A DNA stretch of 64,000 nucleotides, taken from positions 1-64,000 of the forward strand of contig DASTZZ010000109.1 of the NCBI GenBank assembly GCA_035764005.1, in the 5' to 3' direction. The translations under genes and the position numbers were made by a program. The notes beneath the pieces were generated by a model. That model was not told where the DNA came from, made no database searches, and saw nothing but the letters and a program-made list of their open reading frames with translations. Positions 3,594 through 44,113 of this stretch are shown here, piece after piece (positions within the stretch are counted from its first letter, which is position 1; each line of letters begins with the position of its first letter). The DNA comes from Terriglobales bacterium (GTDB lineage: Bacteria > Acidobacteriota > Terriglobia > Terriglobales > Acidobacteriaceae).

Positions 3594-4646
3594 CTAGCTT
3601 CGCTTTCCCGAAGTGAACTCCGCCAACTTTTTCAGCTTCTCCCGTGCGGCGCCTGAATCCAGAGACTCCGCCGCAATCGGCATTGCCGAAGCAATCGAGT
3701 CTGCACGACCTGCAACCACCAGAGCCGCCGCAGCATTCAATAACACTACGTCGCGCCGGGCAGATTTTTCCCCAGCGACGATGTTCCGAATGATCTCGGC
3801 GTTCGCTTTCGTGTCCCCGCCCTGAATTTCCGAAATGGGAGCGCTACGCAGCCCGAACTCCTCAGGGGAGATTTCGTACTCGCGAATCTCGCCATTGCGG
3901 ACTTCAGCGATGTGAGTCGGGCCGGTAATCGTGATCTCGTCGAGCCCGTCTGTCCCGTGTACAACCAGAGCGCGCTTTAGACCAAGCATTTGCAGTGCGC
4001 GTGCGAGCTTTTCGACCAGCGCAGATGAATAAACTCCAACGACCTGCGCCGAAGCGTTCGCTGGATTGCACAGCGGCCCAAGAAGATTAAAAACTGTGCG
4101 CAAGCGTAGTTCGCGTCGCGCGGGTTGGACGTACTTCATTGCCGAATGCATGGAGGGCGCAAAGAGAAATGCAATGCCAACTGCGTCCAGGCATTCAGCG
4201 ACCCGCGCGGGCGGCAGAGTGATGTTGATTCCCAGTGCTTCCACTACATCGGCCGATCCGCAGCGCGAGCTCACACTGCGATTGCCATGCTTGGCGACGC
4301 GCACGCCCGCGCCGGCAACAGCGAGCGCCGTAGCAGTAGAGATGTTGAAGGTGCCGCTGGCATCGCCGCCTGTGCCGCACGTATCGACCAGAGCGTCGCG
4401 TTCCGTGCCGCTCACGTCGAGCGCTGAGTCACGAAGAGCGAGAGGAGCTGAAGCTTTGCGAATCGCTTCCGCAAATCCGACTATCTCCTCGACCGTCTCG
4501 CCCTTCATGTGCAGTGCGACCAGCAACGCCGCAATCTGGGCGTCGGTTGCGCCGCCGGAAAGGATTTCCGACATCACGTCGCGCGCAGCGTCGCGCGAGA
4601 GCGATTCGCGATGGTTCGCCACCTGATGCAGGGCTTCAATGATCAT
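3594..4646 (-). CDS. trpD: Anthranilate phosphoribosyltransferase
   Basis: Transfers phosphoribose from PRPP to anthranilate, the second step of tryptophan synthesis. The PRPP-binding signature [18 protein letters not shown] lies near residue 88, followed by [21 protein letters not shown] and the Mg-binding [10 protein letters not shown] region. At 350 residues it is of normal length. The start is the ATG at 4646. No other trp genes are adjacent, so it is an orphan member of the pathway here. The stop codon abuts a palindromic element downstream, and another element lies in the divergent region upstream (4710-4847), which may carry the promoters of both this gene and the M28 peptidase gene. 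Confidence 0.95.
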
Positions 4647-4709
4647 CGAGGTCTTTTCAAGCTAACTCACTGCAGGGTTGGGTTCAACTGCTGAGGAGAT
4701 GAATGCGGG

Positions 4710-4847
4710 ACAGAACCGCTGGCGCTAGTCAGCGGTGCAGTCGCTTGTGTCGTGGCGGCGGCACGCGCGCAATTCATGCAGCATCGTGCAACTCGGAGCT
4801 GGCCATCTGACCAGCTCCGATCAATCGCCTACCGGCGGCGGTTCTGT
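4710..4847 (+). repeat. ACAGAACCGC...GGCGGTTCTGT palindromic element, copy A
   Basis: The ends are ACAGAACCGC at 4710 and GCGGTTCTGT at 4847, inverted relative to each other. Inside is a perfect 9-bp stem with an 8-base loop (CGGAGCTGG/CCAGCTCCG, 4794-4819) and a GC-rich segment 4732-4775. It shares its termini and the GGAGCTG...CTCCG hairpin with two other copies at 6481 and 7881. It fills the divergent region between trpD and the M28 peptidase gene and ends 26 bases before the latter's start. Confidence 0.75.
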
Positions 4848-4873
4848 TTTATCCTGCTAGACCGGAGAACTCG

Positions 4874-6481
4874 ATGCACAAATCCCTGGTAGTCCTATTC
4901 ACGGCCACGCTCCTCATCGCCCAAGACGTTCCCAATCCGCCCAAAGACTTCGACGGCAAGAGTTGGTGGGACCACGTCAAGGTCCTGGCCGACGACAACA
5001 TGCAAGGACGCGAGACCGGAAGTCCCGGTCTGCAGAAAGCAGAGGCATACGTTGTCGATCAGCTCAAGCAAGCTGGTGTCGAGCCCGCGGGCACGCAGGG
5101 CTACTACCAGCCGGTGAAGCTCACGTCACGAGCAATCGACGAGAAAAATTCGAGCATGGCGCTGATGAAGGAGGGCAAAGCAGAGCTGCTCACGCTTGGT
5201 GAAGACGCGTTCTTCTCCACTCGCGTTGACCTTGCGCCCAAAGTGGAAGCGCCGCTCGTCTTCGTGGGCTATGGATTGAAGATTCCAGAAGAGAGCTATG
5301 ACGACCTCGCCGGGCTCGATCTGAAAGGCAAAATCGCGGTTGTGTTTTCTGGAATTCCGGCTAATATTCCCGGCCCACTCGGATCGCATTATCAAACCGC
5401 CGCAGAGCGATGGAGGGTATTGAAAGAAGCCGGCGCGATCGGTGCACTGTCGATTCCCAATCCGGCATCGATGGACATCCCGTGGTCGCGCATGAGTCTT
5501 TCCCGCACGCATCCCAGCATGCAGCTGGTCGGTGCTGAGTTCAACGACACGGCAGGCGAGAAGATCGCGGGAGTTATCAATCCCGAGCACGCGGATAAAT
5601 TCTTCGCGAATTCAGGACACAAATTTCAGGAAGTCGTCGATGTTGCGAAGGAACGCAAGCAGCTGCCGCGCTTTCCTCTGAACATCTCGTTGCGGGCTCG
5701 CACTAAGACCATCAGGCACGATGTGCAATCGGCGAACGTGATTGGCAAGCTCACAGGCAGCGATCCCAACTTGAAAGACAAGTACGTAGTGCTCTCCGCG
5801 CATATTGACCACCTCGGCATTGGCGAGCCCATTAACGGCGATAAGCTTTACAACGGTGCGATGGACAATGCATCAGGAGACGCTGTCCTACTCGACGTTG
5901 CATCCGCTCTGAAGAGCGCGCAGGAAAAGCCCAAGCGTTCGCTTCTGTTCGTGTTTGTGACGGGAGAAGAAAAAGGTCTGCTCGGCTCAAAGTACTTCAC
6001 TGCACGTCCAACGGTTCCGAAGAATGCGATAGTGGCCGACATCAACATCGACATGTTCCTGCCGCTGTACCCGATGAAGTCGGTGATGGTCTATGGACTG
6101 AATGAATCCGATCTGGGCGATGATCTGCGACGCGTTGCGGAGAAAGATGGCGTCGAGGTGCAGGACGATCCTGAGCCGCAGCGCAACAGCTTCATCCGCA
6201 GCGATCAGTACAACTTTATCCGCCACGGAATTCCCGCGATCACGATGAAGGTCGGTTACAAGCCCGGCTCGGCGGACGACAAAACGTTCCACGACTGGCT
6301 GCATCAGCGGTACCACGCCCCTTTGGACGATCTGAGCCAACCGGTTGATCAGAGCGCGGCAGGAAAGTATGAGCAAATCATAAGTCAGCTCATGCTGACC
6401 ATCGCCGACAATTCGAAGCGTCCGGAATGGAAGCAGCAGAGCTTCTTCCGCAGGTACGCCGAGAGTGTCGGGGGGCAATAA
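4874..6481 (+). CDS. Secreted M28-family peptidase with PA domain
   Basis: Exported zinc aminopeptidase of 535 residues. An N-terminal signal peptide (MHKSLVVLFTATLLIAQ) is followed by a segment around residues 120-250 of protease-associated (PA) type (VFVGYGLKIPEESYDDLAGL, LKGKIAVVFSG). The catalytic M28 domain follows with a complete set of metal ligands: His in SAHIDHLG, Asp in GAMDNASG, Glu-Glu in TGEEKGLLG, Asp in NIDMF and His in RYHAPLDD. It probably releases amino acids from peptides in the periplasm or outside the cell. The start is the first ATG, preceded by ACCGGAG. The gene lies between two copies of the ACAGAACCGC element, copy B starting exactly at its stop codon. Confidence 0.92.
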   Translation: MHKSLVVLFTATLLIAQDVPNPPKDFDGKSWWDHVKVLADDNMQGRETGSPGLQKAEAYVVDQLKQAGVEPAGTQGYYQPVKLTSRAIDEKNSSMALMKEGKAELLTLGEDAFFSTRVDLAPKVEAPLVFVGYGLKIPEESYDDLAGLDLKGKIAVVFSGIPANIPGPLGSHYQTAAERWRVLKEAGAIGALSIPNPASMDIPWSRMSLSRTHPSMQLVGAEFNDTAGEKIAGVINPEHADKFFANSGHKFQEVVDVAKERKQLPRFPLNISLRARTKTIRHDVQSANVIGKLTGSDPNLKDKYVVLSAHIDHLGIGEPINGDKLYNGAMDNASGDAVLLDVASALKSAQEKPKRSLLFVFVTGEEKGLLGSKYFTARPTVPKNAIVADINIDMFLPLYPMKSVMVYGLNESDLGDDLRRVAEKDGVEVQDDPEPQRNSFIRSDQYNFIRHGIPAITMKVGYKPGSADDKTFHDWLHQRYHAPLDDLSQPVDQSAAGKYEQIISQLMLTIADNSKRPEWKQQSFFRRYAESVGGQ

Positions 6482-6616
6482 CAGAACCGCCGACGATAGG
6501 CGGTGGGGCAGCCGCGTTTGTTGCGGCTGCGTGCCTTATTAGGTTGCAGATGGCATTGCGCAGCCCGGAGCTGGCCATTCAGTCATCTCCGGCACACATC
6601 GACTGCCGACGTTCCC
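6481..6616 (+). repeat. ACAGAACCGC palindromic element, copy B (3' end degenerate)
   Basis: It starts with ACAGAACCGCCG directly at the stop codon of the M28 gene. It contains a perfect 8-bp hairpin GCAGCCGC-N7-GCGGCTGC at 6508-6530 and the family hairpin region CGGAGCTGGCCATTC...CATCTCCGG (6566-6592). The right terminal repeat is decayed (GCCGACGTTCC). It ends a few bases before the start of the DUF2264 gene. Confidence 0.65.
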
Positions 6617-6623
6617 TGAATTC

Positions 6624-7874
6624 ATGAACACGCGCAGAGAATTTCTCACGTCCACGATCTCCTGCGGCATTGCCGGACTCTGCTCCTCGTCGGCCTCCAC
6701 CGCCATCACAGCTGCGATCCCGAATGGGGAAACACGCTCCTACTGGCTCACTGTTCTGGAAAAAGTCGCTCTACCCGTTCTCGACGGCCTAGCGAAGCGC
6801 CGATTAAAGAAAGTGATGCCGGTCGAGGCTGCCTATCCCGGCGATCGTGCCAAGTACACACATCTCGAGGCCTTTGGTCGGTTGCTCGCGGGCATCGCTC
6901 CATGGCTTGGCGCCACTGGACTGGATCAATCCGAAGGCACACGGCAAGGACATCTCCTCAACCTCACCTATGCCTCTCTCGATGCTGCTACCGATCCCCG
7001 CTCCCCGGATTTTATGAATTTTTCTGACGGCAATCAGCCGCTGGTAGATGCAGCGTTCCTAGCGGAAGGCATTTTGCGTGCTCGCGATGCTCTATGGAAC
7101 CGGCTGGATCAGCGCGTGAAGCGTCAACTTATCGACGCGCTGAAATCCTCGCGCTCGATTCCCACTCCCGATAAAAATAATTGGGTAATGTTCGCCGCGA
7201 CGGTTGAAGCTGCGCTACACGTTTTCGGTGAGCAGACGATCGAAGATCGTCTTGAGCGCTGTGTCGAACGGATGCTGAGTTGGTACAAAGGCGATGGCGT
7301 TTACGGCGACGGAGAGTTCTTCCACTTCGACTACTACAACAGTTTCGTGATTCATCCCATGCTGGTCGACGTGTTGGCCGTGCTGCAGCAGAAAGACACG
7401 AAGGATGCTTCGCAGTACCAGAGTGAACTGAAGCGTGCTCGCCGTTATGCGGAAATTCAAGAGAGGCTGATCGCACCAGACGGGACTTACCCTGCGGTCG
7501 GTCGTTCAATTACTTACCGCTTCGGGGCCTTCCACGCGCTTGCGCAGATGGCATGGATGCACGAACTTCCCGAGCTGGTGACACCGGCGCAGGTCCGTTG
7601 CGCTCTCACTGCTGTCATTCGTAAACAGATCGAGGCGCCGGGAACATTTGACGAAAACGGTTGGCTCCGCATTGGATTCGCCGGACACCAGCCGACATTA
7701 GCTGAAGGCTACATTTCAACCGGCAGTTTGTATCTCTGCGCAACCGCATTCTTGCCGCTCGGACTGCCTCCGTCCGACCCATTCTGGAACAGCGCTGACG
7801 CGCCGTGGACGTCACAACAAATGTGGTCGGGAAAAGCGCTTCCGGCGGATCATGCGCTCGTTGATGGGAAATGA
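6624..7874 (+). CDS. DUF2264 domain-containing exported protein
   Basis: 416 residues with a Tat-like leader (MNTRREFLTSTISCGIAGLC). The body matches what I know of DUF2264 proteins, which have an alpha/alpha toroid fold related to unsaturated glycosidases and heparinase-type lyases; key stretches are DGNQPLVDAAFLAEGILRA, NNWVMFAATVEAALH, YGDGEFFHFDYYNSFVIHPM and GTYPAVGRSITYRFGAFHAL. The Asp, His and Tyr residues in the third segment could form the active site. The role is probably degradation of plant or microbial polysaccharide in the periplasm, but no enzyme activity can be assigned from the sequence. Its start lies just after repeat copy B and its stop just before copy C. Confidence 0.85.
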   Translation: MNTRREFLTSTISCGIAGLCSSSASTAITAAIPNGETRSYWLTVLEKVALPVLDGLAKRRLKKVMPVEAAYPGDRAKYTHLEAFGRLLAGIAPWLGATGLDQSEGTRQGHLLNLTYASLDAATDPRSPDFMNFSDGNQPLVDAAFLAEGILRARDALWNRLDQRVKRQLIDALKSSRSIPTPDKNNWVMFAATVEAALHVFGEQTIEDRLERCVERMLSWYKGDGVYGDGEFFHFDYYNSFVIHPMLVDVLAVLQQKDTKDASQYQSELKRARRYAEIQERLIAPDGTYPAVGRSITYRFGAFHALAQMAWMHELPELVTPAQVRCALTAVIRKQIEAPGTFDENGWLRIGFAGHQPTLAEGYISTGSLYLCATAFLPLGLPPSDPFWNSADAPWTSQQMWSGKALPADHALVDGK

Positions 7875-7880
7875 AGCATG

Positions 7881-8014
7881 AAAGATCCGCCGCTGGTAGG
7901 CGGTGGGCCGGAGATGGCGAATAGGCAGCTCCGGGTCACGTCGACTCCGAATGTGTCTTAGAAGCAGCCGGAATATCGGAGGCTGTCGAGGGCTCGGTCC
8001 AGCGGCGGTTCTGT
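7881..8014 (-). repeat. ACAGAACCGC palindromic element, copy C (inverted orientation)
   Basis: Read on the minus strand it begins AACAGAACCGCCGCTGG (from 8014), carries the CCGGAGCTGCCTATTCGCCA hairpin region with partner ATCTCCGG (7908-7934), and ends CGCCTACCAGCGGCGGATCT (7882-7901). Order and spacing of these parts match copies A and B. It fills the gap between the convergent DUF2264 and permease genes, so it may serve both as a termination region. Confidence 0.7.
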
Positions 8015-8017
8015 TTA

Positions 8018-10366
8018 TTAATGCCGTCGCGGCTCTGTCGGTGGGACTGGATTCGGCAAAGGCTTGCCGCTTGGACCGATACGGGCAGGAGTCTTGCCAA
8101 TCACACCGTCGCTGGTTCCGCGCAGATCTTTCAGAATGCTCTGGCGGTCGCGCGAGTAGTCGGATGCAAGGCGAGTGAGCGCAAGTGTGACGATATCGTG
8201 ATGATGCAACTCCTCCATGCCCGATTGTCTCCGCGCGTCGAGCCATAGGCGATGGACGAGCATCACGTCTTCAGTTTTTAAGTCAGGATTGTGCGGGCCA
8301 ATACGGAAGCTCCGCACTTCCGGACCTGGCAGTACGACTTGAAACACAAACTGATGTTTCGGAGGCAATGCACCTTCCCAAGCCTGCCCCATGCGGAACG
8401 CCTGCTCCTCGGCGGTCATCTTCGTTGACAATCCAGCCACCACGCGTGCGGCTCCCAGCGAATTCGCCGTCTGCACAATCGCGGAAAACACATCGCGTGC
8501 TGGGACGACCATCAGAGAAATGTGCTTTCCATAGCTTTCTGCGATGCTGACGCACTTGGTGAACAGCGTCTGCTCATGATCGCTGAAGATCTGCTCGCTG
8601 GAGAGATCGACCTCGCCGCTGCCCGGTCCAGTAAGTCTTGCGGCAAGGACGACCACATCATTCTCCGTTGTGTCGGTACTCTGCAGCACCCAACGCAATT
8701 GCAACAGCGTGTTGTAGTCACGAACGGTGACGAGCGTGCAATCCGGACGCACGCCGACGGCTTCACGCTCGATGCGCTCTTCGTGGAGTAGTTGAAAGTG
8801 CTCCTTCATCTCCTTTTCCGCGTGCTTGAACTTCTTTGCATTCGTGTGCTCGGAGATAGTGAAAATGACGAAGAACGCCGCGGCGAACATCACGCCGCTG
8901 ACGGTCGCTACCTTCTTGGTCGCGAGATTCACCAATGCGGTCGTGAGCAGCACCATGAATACTGAGAGAAGACCGAGCGGGATCTCTTTACCGAAGATCC
9001 GTATATTCGGAGGAACCTTCCAGCCGCGCTCGCCTTTGTACTTGAAGCGCAGCACCAGCATGGCGAAGCTATTGAAGGTGAAACTCCAGATCACGCCAAA
9101 CGCATACGCCTCGCCCAGGACATTGACGTCGCCTCGGCTGAGCAGAATCGTGATGATCTGCAGGCCGACGATCAGATTGACGATGCGATAGCTGGTCCCG
9201 TATTTACGCTGCGGCTTGCGGAACCAGTCGGTCAGAACTCCATCTTCTGATACACGATTCAACACGCCATTCGATCCAATGATCGAGGTATTGATCGCGC
9301 CGGAGAGGATCAGGAAACCAACGACGACGACGAACGTGCGGAAGAGCAGTCGGAGCACCAGCGGGCCGTTGAACCACATCACCAGCTCTGCCAGGAGATT
9401 GTTCTCGTAGCTCGCGACTGGCACTTGCTGCGGGATGATCATCACCGCGAGCAGCGTGCCCACTCCAGTAAATAGGAAGCTGTAGATGGCGACGATGATC
9501 GCGGCGCGCTTCAGGTTCTTCAGCTTCGGATGCGCGATTTCGCGATTTACTTGGGCCAGGGTCTCTTCGCCGCTCATGGCCAGCACAGAGTGCCCAAAGG
9601 CCATAAGGATGCCGAAAAGGCCAAACGCACTGGCGACACTGGTGTGCTGCAGGAATCCGAGCGAGGTCTCGTTGAAGTGCAGGTTCGAAGGCGTCGGCCA
9701 CGGCGGCAGCTCGCCACCTCGCTTTAACAGCGTGATCACCGCCCAGCCGAGCAGGAGCACGACCATGATGCTGGTGATCTGCATTACGCGGAGGGCCTTG
9801 TCGCTCGATTCCTCGATGCCTTTGATGTTTTCCCACCAGTAATAAAGCGTGACCGCAAGACAGATCACGACCGACGCAGTATTCACATTTAGCTGCGGTG
9901 TCCCGTGAAACATCGCGTGGATGCCCGGGCCGATCCAGCCGTGGGCGTCCGCTTTGCTGAAAAGCTCGTTAACGAGACCGGCGATGTACTGGCCCGCAGA
10001 TACTCCCGAAATGGGACCAGTGAGGATGTAGTCAAACATCAGCGCGGAGACGCTGAGCTTCGCCAAGGTCCCGCCGAGCGCTTCCTTGACTACGCGATAG
10101 ACGCCGCCGCGCACGAACATCGAGCAGCTCTCGACGTACACTGCGCGGACCGCGAACGAGAAGAGCATCACTCCCAAAATGAACCAGGGAGCAGAGCGTC
10201 CAAACGCGTCTTCGGCGATGCCGCCGACGTAATAAGCGGATGATCCCAGATCGTTGAGAACGATGGCAGCTGCGCGCCAATACGAGATAAACGTAAGCGC
10301 CACCGAAGAGGCGACTACGATTCGTACCCGGTTGGAAGGCGTGAGTATCTGGGAACCAGAGGACAT
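8018..10366 (-). CDS. APC-superfamily amino acid permease with C-terminal cytosolic domain
   Basis: 782-residue inner-membrane transporter. Residues 1-520 carry about 12 hydrophobic segments of the APC fold; the first contains a broken-helix region (VASSVALTFISYWRAAAIVL). From about residue 545 a soluble domain follows (VRPDCTLVTVRDYNTLLQL, NDVVVLAARLTG, ISLMVVPARDVFSAIVQTA), which looks like a universal-stress-protein (USP) type alpha/beta sensor; this part is inference. The substrate is unknown, probably an amino acid or polyamine. The start ATG at 10366 is the first in frame. A 56-residue membrane protein is encoded 82 bases upstream on the same strand and may be its partner. Confidence 0.88.
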   Translation of the reverse strand: MSSGSQILTPSNRVRIVVASSVALTFISYWRAAAIVLNDLGSSAYYVGGIAEDAFGRSAPWFILGVMLFSFAVRAVYVESCSMFVRGGVYRVVKEALGGTLAKLSVSALMFDYILTGPISGVSAGQYIAGLVNELFSKADAHGWIGPGIHAMFHGTPQLNVNTASVVICLAVTLYYWWENIKGIEESSDKALRVMQITSIMVVLLLGWAVITLLKRGGELPPWPTPSNLHFNETSLGFLQHTSVASAFGLFGILMAFGHSVLAMSGEETLAQVNREIAHPKLKNLKRAAIIVAIYSFLFTGVGTLLAVMIIPQQVPVASYENNLLAELVMWFNGPLVLRLLFRTFVVVVGFLILSGAINTSIIGSNGVLNRVSEDGVLTDWFRKPQRKYGTSYRIVNLIVGLQIITILLSRGDVNVLGEAYAFGVIWSFTFNSFAMLVLRFKYKGERGWKVPPNIRIFGKEIPLGLLSVFMVLLTTALVNLATKKVATVSGVMFAAAFFVIFTISEHTNAKKFKHAEKEMKEHFQLLHEERIEREAVGVRPDCTLVTVRDYNTLLQLRWVLQSTDTTENDVVVLAARLTGPGSGEVDLSSEQIFSDHEQTLFTKCVSIAESYGKHISLMVVPARDVFSAIVQTANSLGAARVVAGLSTKMTAEEQAFRMGQAWEGALPPKHQFVFQVVLPGPEVRSFRIGPHNPDLKTEDVMLVHRLWLDARRQSGMEELHHHDIVTLALTRLASDYSRDRQSILKDLRGTSDGVIGKTPARIGPSGKPLPNPVPPTEPRRH

Positions 10367-30294: not shown

Positions 30295-30369
30295 TGGAGC
30301 GGGAGACGGGGATCGAACCCGCGACATCCGGCTTGGGAAGCCGACGTTCTACCGCTGAACTACTCCCGC
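30295..30369 (-). tRNA. tRNA-Gly (anticodon CCC)
   Basis: On the minus strand the acceptor arm GCGGGAG pairs with CTCCCGC; the D arm is GTTCAGCGGTAGAAC, the anticodon stem TCGGC/GCCGG encloses loop TTCCCAA (anticodon CCC, reading GGG), and the T arm is GTCGCGGGTTCGATCCCCGT. CCA is encoded (30297-30295). All arms fold. Confidence 0.95.
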
Positions 30370-44036: not shown

Positions 44037-44113
44037 GCGCCCGTAGCTCAGCTGGATAGAGCGAATGCCTCCGGAGCATTAGGTCGGGAGTTCGAATCTC
44101 TCCGGGCGCGCCA
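44037..44113 (+). tRNA. tRNA-Arg (anticodon CCG)
   Basis: Acceptor GCGCCCG pairs with CGGGCGC; D arm GCTCAGCTGGATAGAGC; anticodon stem AATGC/GCATT with loop CTCCGGA (anticodon CCG, reading CGG); T arm GGGAGTTCGAATCTCTC with variable loop TAGGTC. CCA is encoded at 44111-44113. Confidence 0.96.

Follow-up and report, generated by a model that had tools for sequence, protein, structure and literature searches.

We describe a family of short, hairpin-rich DNA elements in the genome of a Terriglobales bacterium (GenBank assembly GCA_035764005.1), three copies of which lie within 3.3 kb in the stretch analyzed here, positions 1 to 64,000 of contig DASTZZ010000109.1 (the window). We conclude that the copies are very probably non-autonomous, REPIN-like elements of a HUH (Y1) transposase system of the Class 3 or TIRYT type, and that a gene on contig C70, which encodes a transposase of 167 residues, is likely the driving gene in the host genome. 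REPINs are dispersed pairs of inverted hairpins, found mainly between genes, and their hairpin also flanks a HUH transposase gene. A sequence-only reading of the window had offered either selection on RNA or DNA structure or a non-autonomous mobile element as explanation. Dispersed copies, subfamilies, and a bracketed transposase gene speak strongly for the mobile element, and selection on the stems is likewise upheld; a function as RNA is not.

Copies of the element in the window and in the host genome

A profile hidden Markov model (HMM) was built from 28 copies found elsewhere in the genome and none of the three in the window. It recovered all three (4710-4848, 6480-6611, and, on the minus strand, 8014-7882), confirming that the copies are real and that the coordinates first given for them were accurate within 1-3 bases. 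Ranked next were the reverse arms of copies 2 and 1 (E 0.0002 and 0.012); elsewhere in the window no match was better than E 0.16, and the reversed window gave 0.084 at best. The inverted termini that the sequence-only reading had ascribed to all three are both kept in copy 1, but copies 2 and 3 each retain one good ACAGAACCGC end, the other being decayed.

The host genome measures 5.1 Mb. BLAST with copy 1 returned 51 match rows from it, and a covariance model made from 31 copies (R1) returned 135 rows with both strands counted. After merging of strands, the fetched stretches contained 91 non-overlapping R1 matches at E <= 1e-3, and 72 of these were near full length. Context counts below use the 86 R1 matches of at least 40 bits, and the host copy number is thus at least 86. 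Alignment A1 excluded L004, L009, and a second match at L008, all partial, as well as L018, whose 5' end has diverged.

The element is about 138 bp long and comprises four hairpins: an end hairpin with a CNGA foot and a GGTA loop, an inner hairpin (H1), then, after a variable linker, a second inner hairpin (H2) and the end hairpin in inverted orientation. In the consensus of 70 copies, ACAGAACCGCCGGCGGTAGCCGGTGGG is followed by H1 (GCAGCCGC GTGTGTT GCGGCTGC), a linker of about 30 nt with little conservation, H2 (TCGGAGCTGGCCATTCGGCCATCTCCGA), and CCCACCGGCTACCGCCGGCGGTTCTGTT.

Covariation within the end arms

Two pairings of the element ends were compared in the 31 copies. When each arm was folded on itself (CCGNCGNC GGTA GNCGNTGG and its inverse), 89.0% of the cells paired, 68 cells carried double changes, as against 25.8 in shuffles, and the covariation score was 0.192. 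For pairing of one end with the other, the values were 87.4%, 54 cells, and 0.133; scores were 0.098-0.100 in shuffles and at most 0.067 for slid structures. The most variable pairs favor the in-arm hairpins, because their cross-arm partners mostly fail: of the 31 copies, 25 have a standard pair at 14-21 and 28 pair at 129-136, whereas 14-136 pairs in 11 and 21-129 in 14. The end-to-end stem was therefore set aside as the principal structure, although the outermost bases AACAG/CTGTT pair end to end only. Selection on stem structure, as the sequence-only reading had suggested, is supported by these compensatory changes, with the difference that the best-covarying end stems lie inside each end and not only between the termini. 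The covariance-model search and stem check that it had proposed thus yielded many further copies and many paired changes, rather than none of either.

In the 3' arm, pair 125-140 is unpaired on the top strand in 29 of 31 copies, where the 5' arm has a G-T pair. The failure is explained by its being the complement of G-T, and it fits recognition of one strand per arm. Folded as single-stranded DNA (ssDNA), two intact arms and window copy 1 gave -8.3 to -9.5 kcal/mol, and window copy 2 gave -6.8 kcal/mol. Among 89 host arms with a C-GGTA-G loop, which fall into 34 stem types, Watson-Crick pairs occupied the four stem positions in 61, 80, 78, and 80 arms, compared with shuffled means of 32, 73, 66, and 46. 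In 31 arms from the fetched loci of the five other genomes of the genus (seven stem types), 29, 30, 22 (plus eight T-G), and 30 were paired; positions 1 and 3 lay above every shuffle, and positions 2 and 4 are uninformative because they hardly vary.

The inverted termini of about 28 bp and the short non-coding body would also suit a miniature inverted-repeat transposable element of a classical DDE transposon, in which the terminal repeats serve as double-strand binding sites and insertion leaves a target-site duplication. We find this explanation hardly credible. Cross-arm columns 14/136 and 21/129 are unpaired in 20 and 17 of the 31 copies, and the stronger covariation within arms identifies them as hairpins rather than mere inverted repeats. 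Moreover, the gene bracketed by the element encodes a HUH-Y1 enzyme. Finally, no target duplication was seen among 50 copies with both ends anchored (k = 3, 4, 5, 6, and 8; two cut points), and flank similarity was not above that of permuted pairs in any of ten settings, the lowest rank being 33 of 500.

A Y1 transposase gene bracketed by copies

The host genome contains 12 matches to Y1_Tnp (PF01797). One of them, the gene on contig C70 (L072), has element copies of 186 and 205 bp directly on both sides, in the orientation of the gene; the upstream copy stops 14 bp short of the start codon, and the downstream copy overlaps the stop codon. These copies begin with CGGA and CTGA, and the dispersed copies with CAGA or CGGA, all of which conform to a CnGA foot. 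Around the other 11 Y1_Tnp genes, R1 found nothing within 1.5 kb on either side.

The protein encoded by the C70 gene (P0001) is a 167-residue HUH transposase with an NHVH motif, WT at residues 143-144, and the sequence YVVNGQ. Across 34 sequences, H93, H95, and Y154 are invariant, and N92 and Q159 are conserved in at least 90%. Its predicted structure (mean predicted local distance difference test score 83.5) matched ISDra2, IS608, and Escherichia coli TnpA-REP (4er8) in Foldseek with E values of 3e-5 to 1e-3, and a sequence search of the PDB gave unrelated weak matches only.

Other Y1 loci in these genomes carry repeats or hairpins of their own. The host Y1_Tnp genes at L065, L067, L069, and L070 lie between repeats of a further inverted family (TCGGGTGCCCCACTCTCGCGTG...GCGAGGGTGGG), which is probably a separate repetitive extragenic palindromic (REP) system. 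A second class-3-like transposase gene (L081, G000 C25:75131-75562) is 56% identical to P0001 over residues 5-148 and is flanked, as judged by eye, by a different hairpin version, CAGTACCGTCCGCGGTAGCGGATGGG; the version CAGTACCGTCCGCGGTAGCGGATGGGTGAGTC of L081 also occurs beside genes of G001 (L080 and L087). Decayed transposase copies, recognizable by split matches or a single in-frame TAA, are present at G000 C62:10199-10682 (L085, L086, and L088), at G005 C5:23442-23908, and on G001 C103 (L084).

Distribution in the genus and in two phyla

At E <= 0.001, R1 matched all six genomes of the genus among the 61 genomes searched and one of the 55 others, by a single match. Relatives of the transposase were found in seven of the 61, G016 being marginal. 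R1 matches lie beside transposase relatives in G001 (L074 and L084), G002 (L075), and G005 (L076), and related hairpins are visible, by eye only, at L080, L081, and L087. A one-arm pattern with up to two mismatches occurred 101 times in G000, 62 in G001, 54 in G002, 37 in G003, 38 in G005, and three in G004; reversed, it occurred 0-2 times in the six genomes of the genus.

For a family-wide view, we took the best 80 of 177 transposase loci from a scan of a genome collection. By record label, 42 of these 80 belong to Acidobacteriota, 34 to Planctomycetota, and four to others, and the closest named relatives among them are from Acidobacteriota. An inverted repeat between the two flanks beat all 30 block shuffles at 72 of the 80 loci; the shuffles moved two-base blocks and are not exact dinucleotide shuffles. 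In 69 dissected arms, the loop of the best hairpin was GTNA or GGTA in 39, and the foot was CNGA or CNGT in 62, a count partly produced by construction because the search demanded a C-N-G start. Stems are mostly perfect and 8 bp long in Acidobacteriota, while many from Planctomycetota have two internal mismatches. Examples of the latter (within L212-L271) such as CCGAGCCGCGACCGTGAGGGAGCGG combine a C-GTGA-G loop with two mismatches of the G-A type inside the stem. A regular expression for foot plus loop proved too loose when a match in either flank sufficed (64 of 80 loci, 32 of 80 shuffled); with both flanks required, it matched 50 of 80 loci and one of ten control loci, these control loci being the sole comparison.

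Relation to known systems

The accessible text of Quentin et al. 2018 (PMC6006769) describes Class 3 TnpA-Y1 REPtrons, found in Planctomycetes and Acidobacteria, whose HuH proteins carry NHVH, W[TA], and Y----Q motifs and whose genes are flanked by atypical structures with a 5' CnGA foot, present in about 600 copies in Solibacter Ellin6076. P0001 carries all three motifs, and the phyla, the CnGA foot, and the high copy number of the structure (at least 86 here) agree as well. The published YV[VI][AENY]EQ is matched by YVVNGQ except for the G before Q, and the transposase has 167 residues here against the 178 given in that text. The foot is CNGA in the element family, and relatives also have CNGT. 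The available portion of the class 3 description contains neither the GTNA/GGTA tetraloop nor the paired 138-bp composite or H1 and H2. Judged by motifs, foot, copy number, and phyla, the system fits a Class 3 REPtron with a composite, four-hairpin non-autonomous form.

Di Nocera et al. 2013 (PMC3733652, accessible text) describe the TIRYTs, or TIRtrons, of Acidobacteria: tyrosine transposases with inverted repeats on either side of their genes; the repeats flanking ORF 1552 of K. versatilis belong to a repeat family. Compared by description, the TIRYT motif GGGGWSAS is only approximated, by GGGTGAG/GGGTCAG beside the G001 genes and by GGGGCAGC here.

As in REPINs, the dispersed element consists of two inverted copies of one hairpin unit, its 5' and 3' arms. 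It differs from canonical REPs (class 2) in that CNGA and a further 1-3 nt stand before the stem, where those have GTAG or GTGG within 0-2 nt, and in that GGTA forms the loop. It also differs from canonical REPINs and their REP-associated tyrosine transposases (RAYTs) by having two extra hairpins between the pair and a transposase below the REP_Tyr_transpos cut-off. With IS200/IS605 elements (IS608 and ISDra2), the system shares hairpin ends and a predicted HUH-Y1 fold; here, however, copies of the coding-free element far exceed the gene in number, and a single hairpin, inverted, serves as both ends. Guide sequences for cleavage are discussed in the accessible part of Corneloup et al. 2021 (PMC8266576). 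Among the papers listed from the open-licence literature on REPtrons, RAYTs, or REPINs in Acidobacteria or Planctomycetes, we recognized no other on the class, which is weak evidence of absence.

Placement and gene ends

Placement was scored against open reading frames that we picked by codon usage, in place of a published gene finder. Twelve of the 86 copies share more than 50 nt with a called gene. The 70 intergenic copies that have a gene on either side comprise 36 between co-directional, 27 between convergent, and seven between divergent genes, compared with 124, 48, and 37 for the full set of neighboring gene pairs in these stretches. After 45 of 172 edges had been dropped as truncated or without anchor, 72 of the 127 anchored edges faced the 3' end of a gene. 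At 21, the stop codon lies exactly against the foot, and seven genes end at a TAG that spans the loop. The M28 gene of the window is among the 21; the first two bases of copy 2 are included in its TAA stop codon, and three orthologs in the genus are equal to it in C-terminal length (3/3, counted by hand). At ten loci there were nine such element-abutting gene ends, four of which had relatives among 30 loci compared: C19-R (2/2) and C129-L (5/5) were equal in length, C77-L was one residue longer (one relative), and C10-L six residues shorter (one relative). The base before the foot is A at 119 of 127 edges, and the one before that A or G at 113; as A or G followed by A precedes most feet, we make no claim of specific targeting of stop codons. 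By analogy, the sharing of stop codons is a REP-like trait, because GTAG REP termini often supply stop codons (PMC3733652, accessible text).

Such gene ends bear on the possibility that the element acts mainly as RNA, with transcript hairpins that terminate, protect, or regulate neighboring mRNAs. The covarying stems and the 21 stop codons abutting the foot would suit this explanation, as would the report, in the available text of PMC12306157, that ribosomes are stalled by E. coli REPs lying no more than 15 nt from a stop codon. We nevertheless rate it as very unlikely. Copies show no bias in orientation relative to genes (17 same and 19 opposite among the 36 co-directional intergenic copies), and divergent intergenic copies occur (7 of 86). 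The end hairpins are identical on opposite strands, and in 29 of 31 copies a mismatch in the top-strand 3' arm takes the place of the G-T pair of the 5' arm; one recognition hairpin on each strand would produce this pattern. A similar hairpin, in addition, brackets transposase genes in two phyla. Rfam gave no match at E values up to 1 in 12 loci, and a riboswitch or other known RNA was rejected on this basis; the only window matches at gathering threshold are two tRNA genes (30298-30369 and 44037-44110).

Conservation and age of the copies

Mean pairwise identity among the 70 aligned copies is 0.78 in the hairpins and 0.41 in the linker, shuffled linkers giving 0.26. The eight closest pairs are 0.88-0.95 identical in the hairpins and 0.69-0.94 in the linker. 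Together, these values indicate that the elements multiplied, mostly long ago. Subfamilies can be distinguished; 13 of the 70, for example, share an H2 of the GAGTTCGCC type. In this subfamily, the per-site difference is 0.07-0.10 in the hairpins against 0.24 in the linker, and in an 18-copy cluster it is 0.12 against 0.27. Stems are thus kept better than the linker both between and within subfamilies, for which constraint by the transposase or by the host are both possible causes.

Such conservation would also be expected of a formerly mobile element that has been domesticated and is now retained by selection for a host benefit, in roles like those of REPs. The gap between hairpins and linker, overall and within the 13-copy subfamily and the 18-copy cluster, agrees with that explanation, yet transposase constraint on the active lineage alone would give the same pattern. 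Furthermore, the closest five copies show only a small contrast (0.050-0.061 per site in the hairpins against 0.09 in the linker), and some copies have one decayed end, as do window copies 2 and 3. Domestication is, in our estimate, unlikely.

The window copies and their neighborhood

The anatomy of the three window copies is given in Table 1. As the sequence-only reading had it, the copies sit between divergent (Glycos_transf_3/M28), co-directional (M28/DUF2264), and convergent (DUF2264/AA_permease_2) genes. It had further stressed that every gap around M28 and DUF2264 is taken; the gaps are indeed occupied, but this could be due to chance. When 86 copies were placed at random in 5.1 Mb, at least one triple within 3.5 kb arose in 14.5% of 2000 trials. 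Three copies within 3.5 kb are therefore unremarkable, and a special clustering at M28/DUF2264 was rejected. Orthologs of M28 in G001, G003, and G004 (83-84% identity) have different neighboring sequence, and R1 had no match in the fetched loci. No full-length DUF2264 match at E 1e-30 was found in the five other genomes of the genus; G003 has a partial 64% match with an internal stop, and full-length relatives occur in G022 and G046.

Table 1. Element copies, their hairpins, and neighboring genes in the window.
Feature	Position	Strand	Remarks
Element copy 1	4709..4848	+	divergent intergenic; R1 100.2 bits; leave-window-out HMM E 5.3e-28
Copy 1, 5' end arm	4709..4737	+	foot CAGA and hairpin; loop GCTA, not GGTA; alignment, ssDNA fold -9.1 kcal/mol
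Copy 1, inner hairpin H1	4737..4759	+	alignment, pair counts
Copy 1, inner hairpin H2	4793..4820	+	TCGGAGCTGG...CCAGCTCCGA; alignment, pair counts
Copy 1, 3' end arm	4821..4848	-	inverse of 5' end hairpin; alignment
Element copy 2	6480..6619	+	R1 82.7 bits; leave-window-out HMM E 2.8e-24
Copy 2, 5' end arm	6480..6507	+	foot CAGA and hairpin; alignment, ssDNA fold
Copy 2, inner hairpin H1	6508..6530	+	GCAGCCGC GTTTGTT GCGGCTGC; alignment, pair counts
Copy 2, inner hairpin H2	6565..6592	+	hairpin of the sequence-only reading; alignment, pair counts
Copy 2, 3' end arm	6593..6619	-	decayed; alignment
Element copy 3	7880..8015	-	inverted, between convergent genes; R1 59.8 bits; leave-window-out HMM E 2.7e-13
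Copy 3, 5' end arm	7987..8015	-	decayed in inner part; alignment
Copy 3, inner hairpin H1	7964..7986	-	degenerate; alignment
Copy 3, inner hairpin H2	7908..7934	-	alignment
Copy 3, 3' end arm	7880..7907	+	terminus decayed to GATCC; alignment
Peptidase family M28 gene (PF04389)	4874..6481	+	neighbor, outside element
DUF2264 gene (PF10022)	6624..7874	+	neighbor, outside element
Glycos_transf_3 gene	3594-4646	-	neighbor
AA_permease_2 gene	8018-10366	-	neighbor

Discussion

Several observations weigh against a REPIN-like element driven by the C70 transposase. P0001 barely passes the PF01797 cut-off (24.2 against 23) and falls below those of NCBIfam (REP_Tyr_transpos, 25.1 against 80; IS200, 23.4 against 55). 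Inverted repeats of unrelated sequence are present at eight of the ten other host Y1 loci, so that inverted repeats beside a Y1 gene are in themselves non-specific. The draft genomes G003 and G004 have elements, and no transposase match was found in either. Of the 12 loci of transposase relatives, R1 has no match at five (L077, L080, L081, L085, and L087) and only a weak one (E 0.01-0.1) at L078 and L082. Present mobility is doubtful because the copies are mostly old, as the identities of hairpins and linker indicate. Lastly, the search for empty sites in related genomes that the sequence-only reading had proposed gave no clean one: the joined flanks of ten copies matched the five other genomes of the genus by single flanks only, and for the C78 copy, a single contig in each of G001, G003, and G004 holds both flank matches at a distance of about 10 kb.

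Even with these points, we consider a non-autonomous element of a Class 3 HUH transposase system the best account of the data, and we infer that the element is or has been mobile. By analogy with known enzymes, the C70 transposase or its relatives may transpose single strands. In such a mechanism, the region would become single-stranded, replication being the circumstance that PMC6006769 gives in the case of IS608 and ISDra2; the transposase would recognize and bind the end hairpins, and tyrosine 154 would cut beside the foot. The enclosed strand may then be moved or copied as ssDNA to a new site, presumably without target duplication, and the copies would subsequently decay in place.

We also put forward, tentatively and as an idea that may well prove wrong, that the element is a polar, four-hairpin REPIN. 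Each end would be a double hairpin in which the common end hairpin is joined by H1 (left) or H2 (right). These inner hairpins would preserve the distinction between the left and right ends of an IS200/IS605 insertion sequence, the outer hairpins having been made identical as in REPINs. On this view, Class 3 systems could represent extant intermediates that link insertion sequences with REPINs; a possible intermediate position between insertion sequences and REP systems was flagged in 2018, together with the need for experiments (PMC6006769, accessible text). The recognition code, possibly common to Acidobacteriota and Planctomycetota, would be a CNG[AT] foot followed by a hairpin with a C-GTNA-G or C-GGTA-G tetraloop.

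The analysis provides a concrete pair of transposase and hairpin, with end hairpins tested by covariation and a usable covariance model, and the natural variants in two phyla offer material for reading the recognition code. It also accounts for an abundant repeat in the genus and cautions against calling that repeat an RNA gene.

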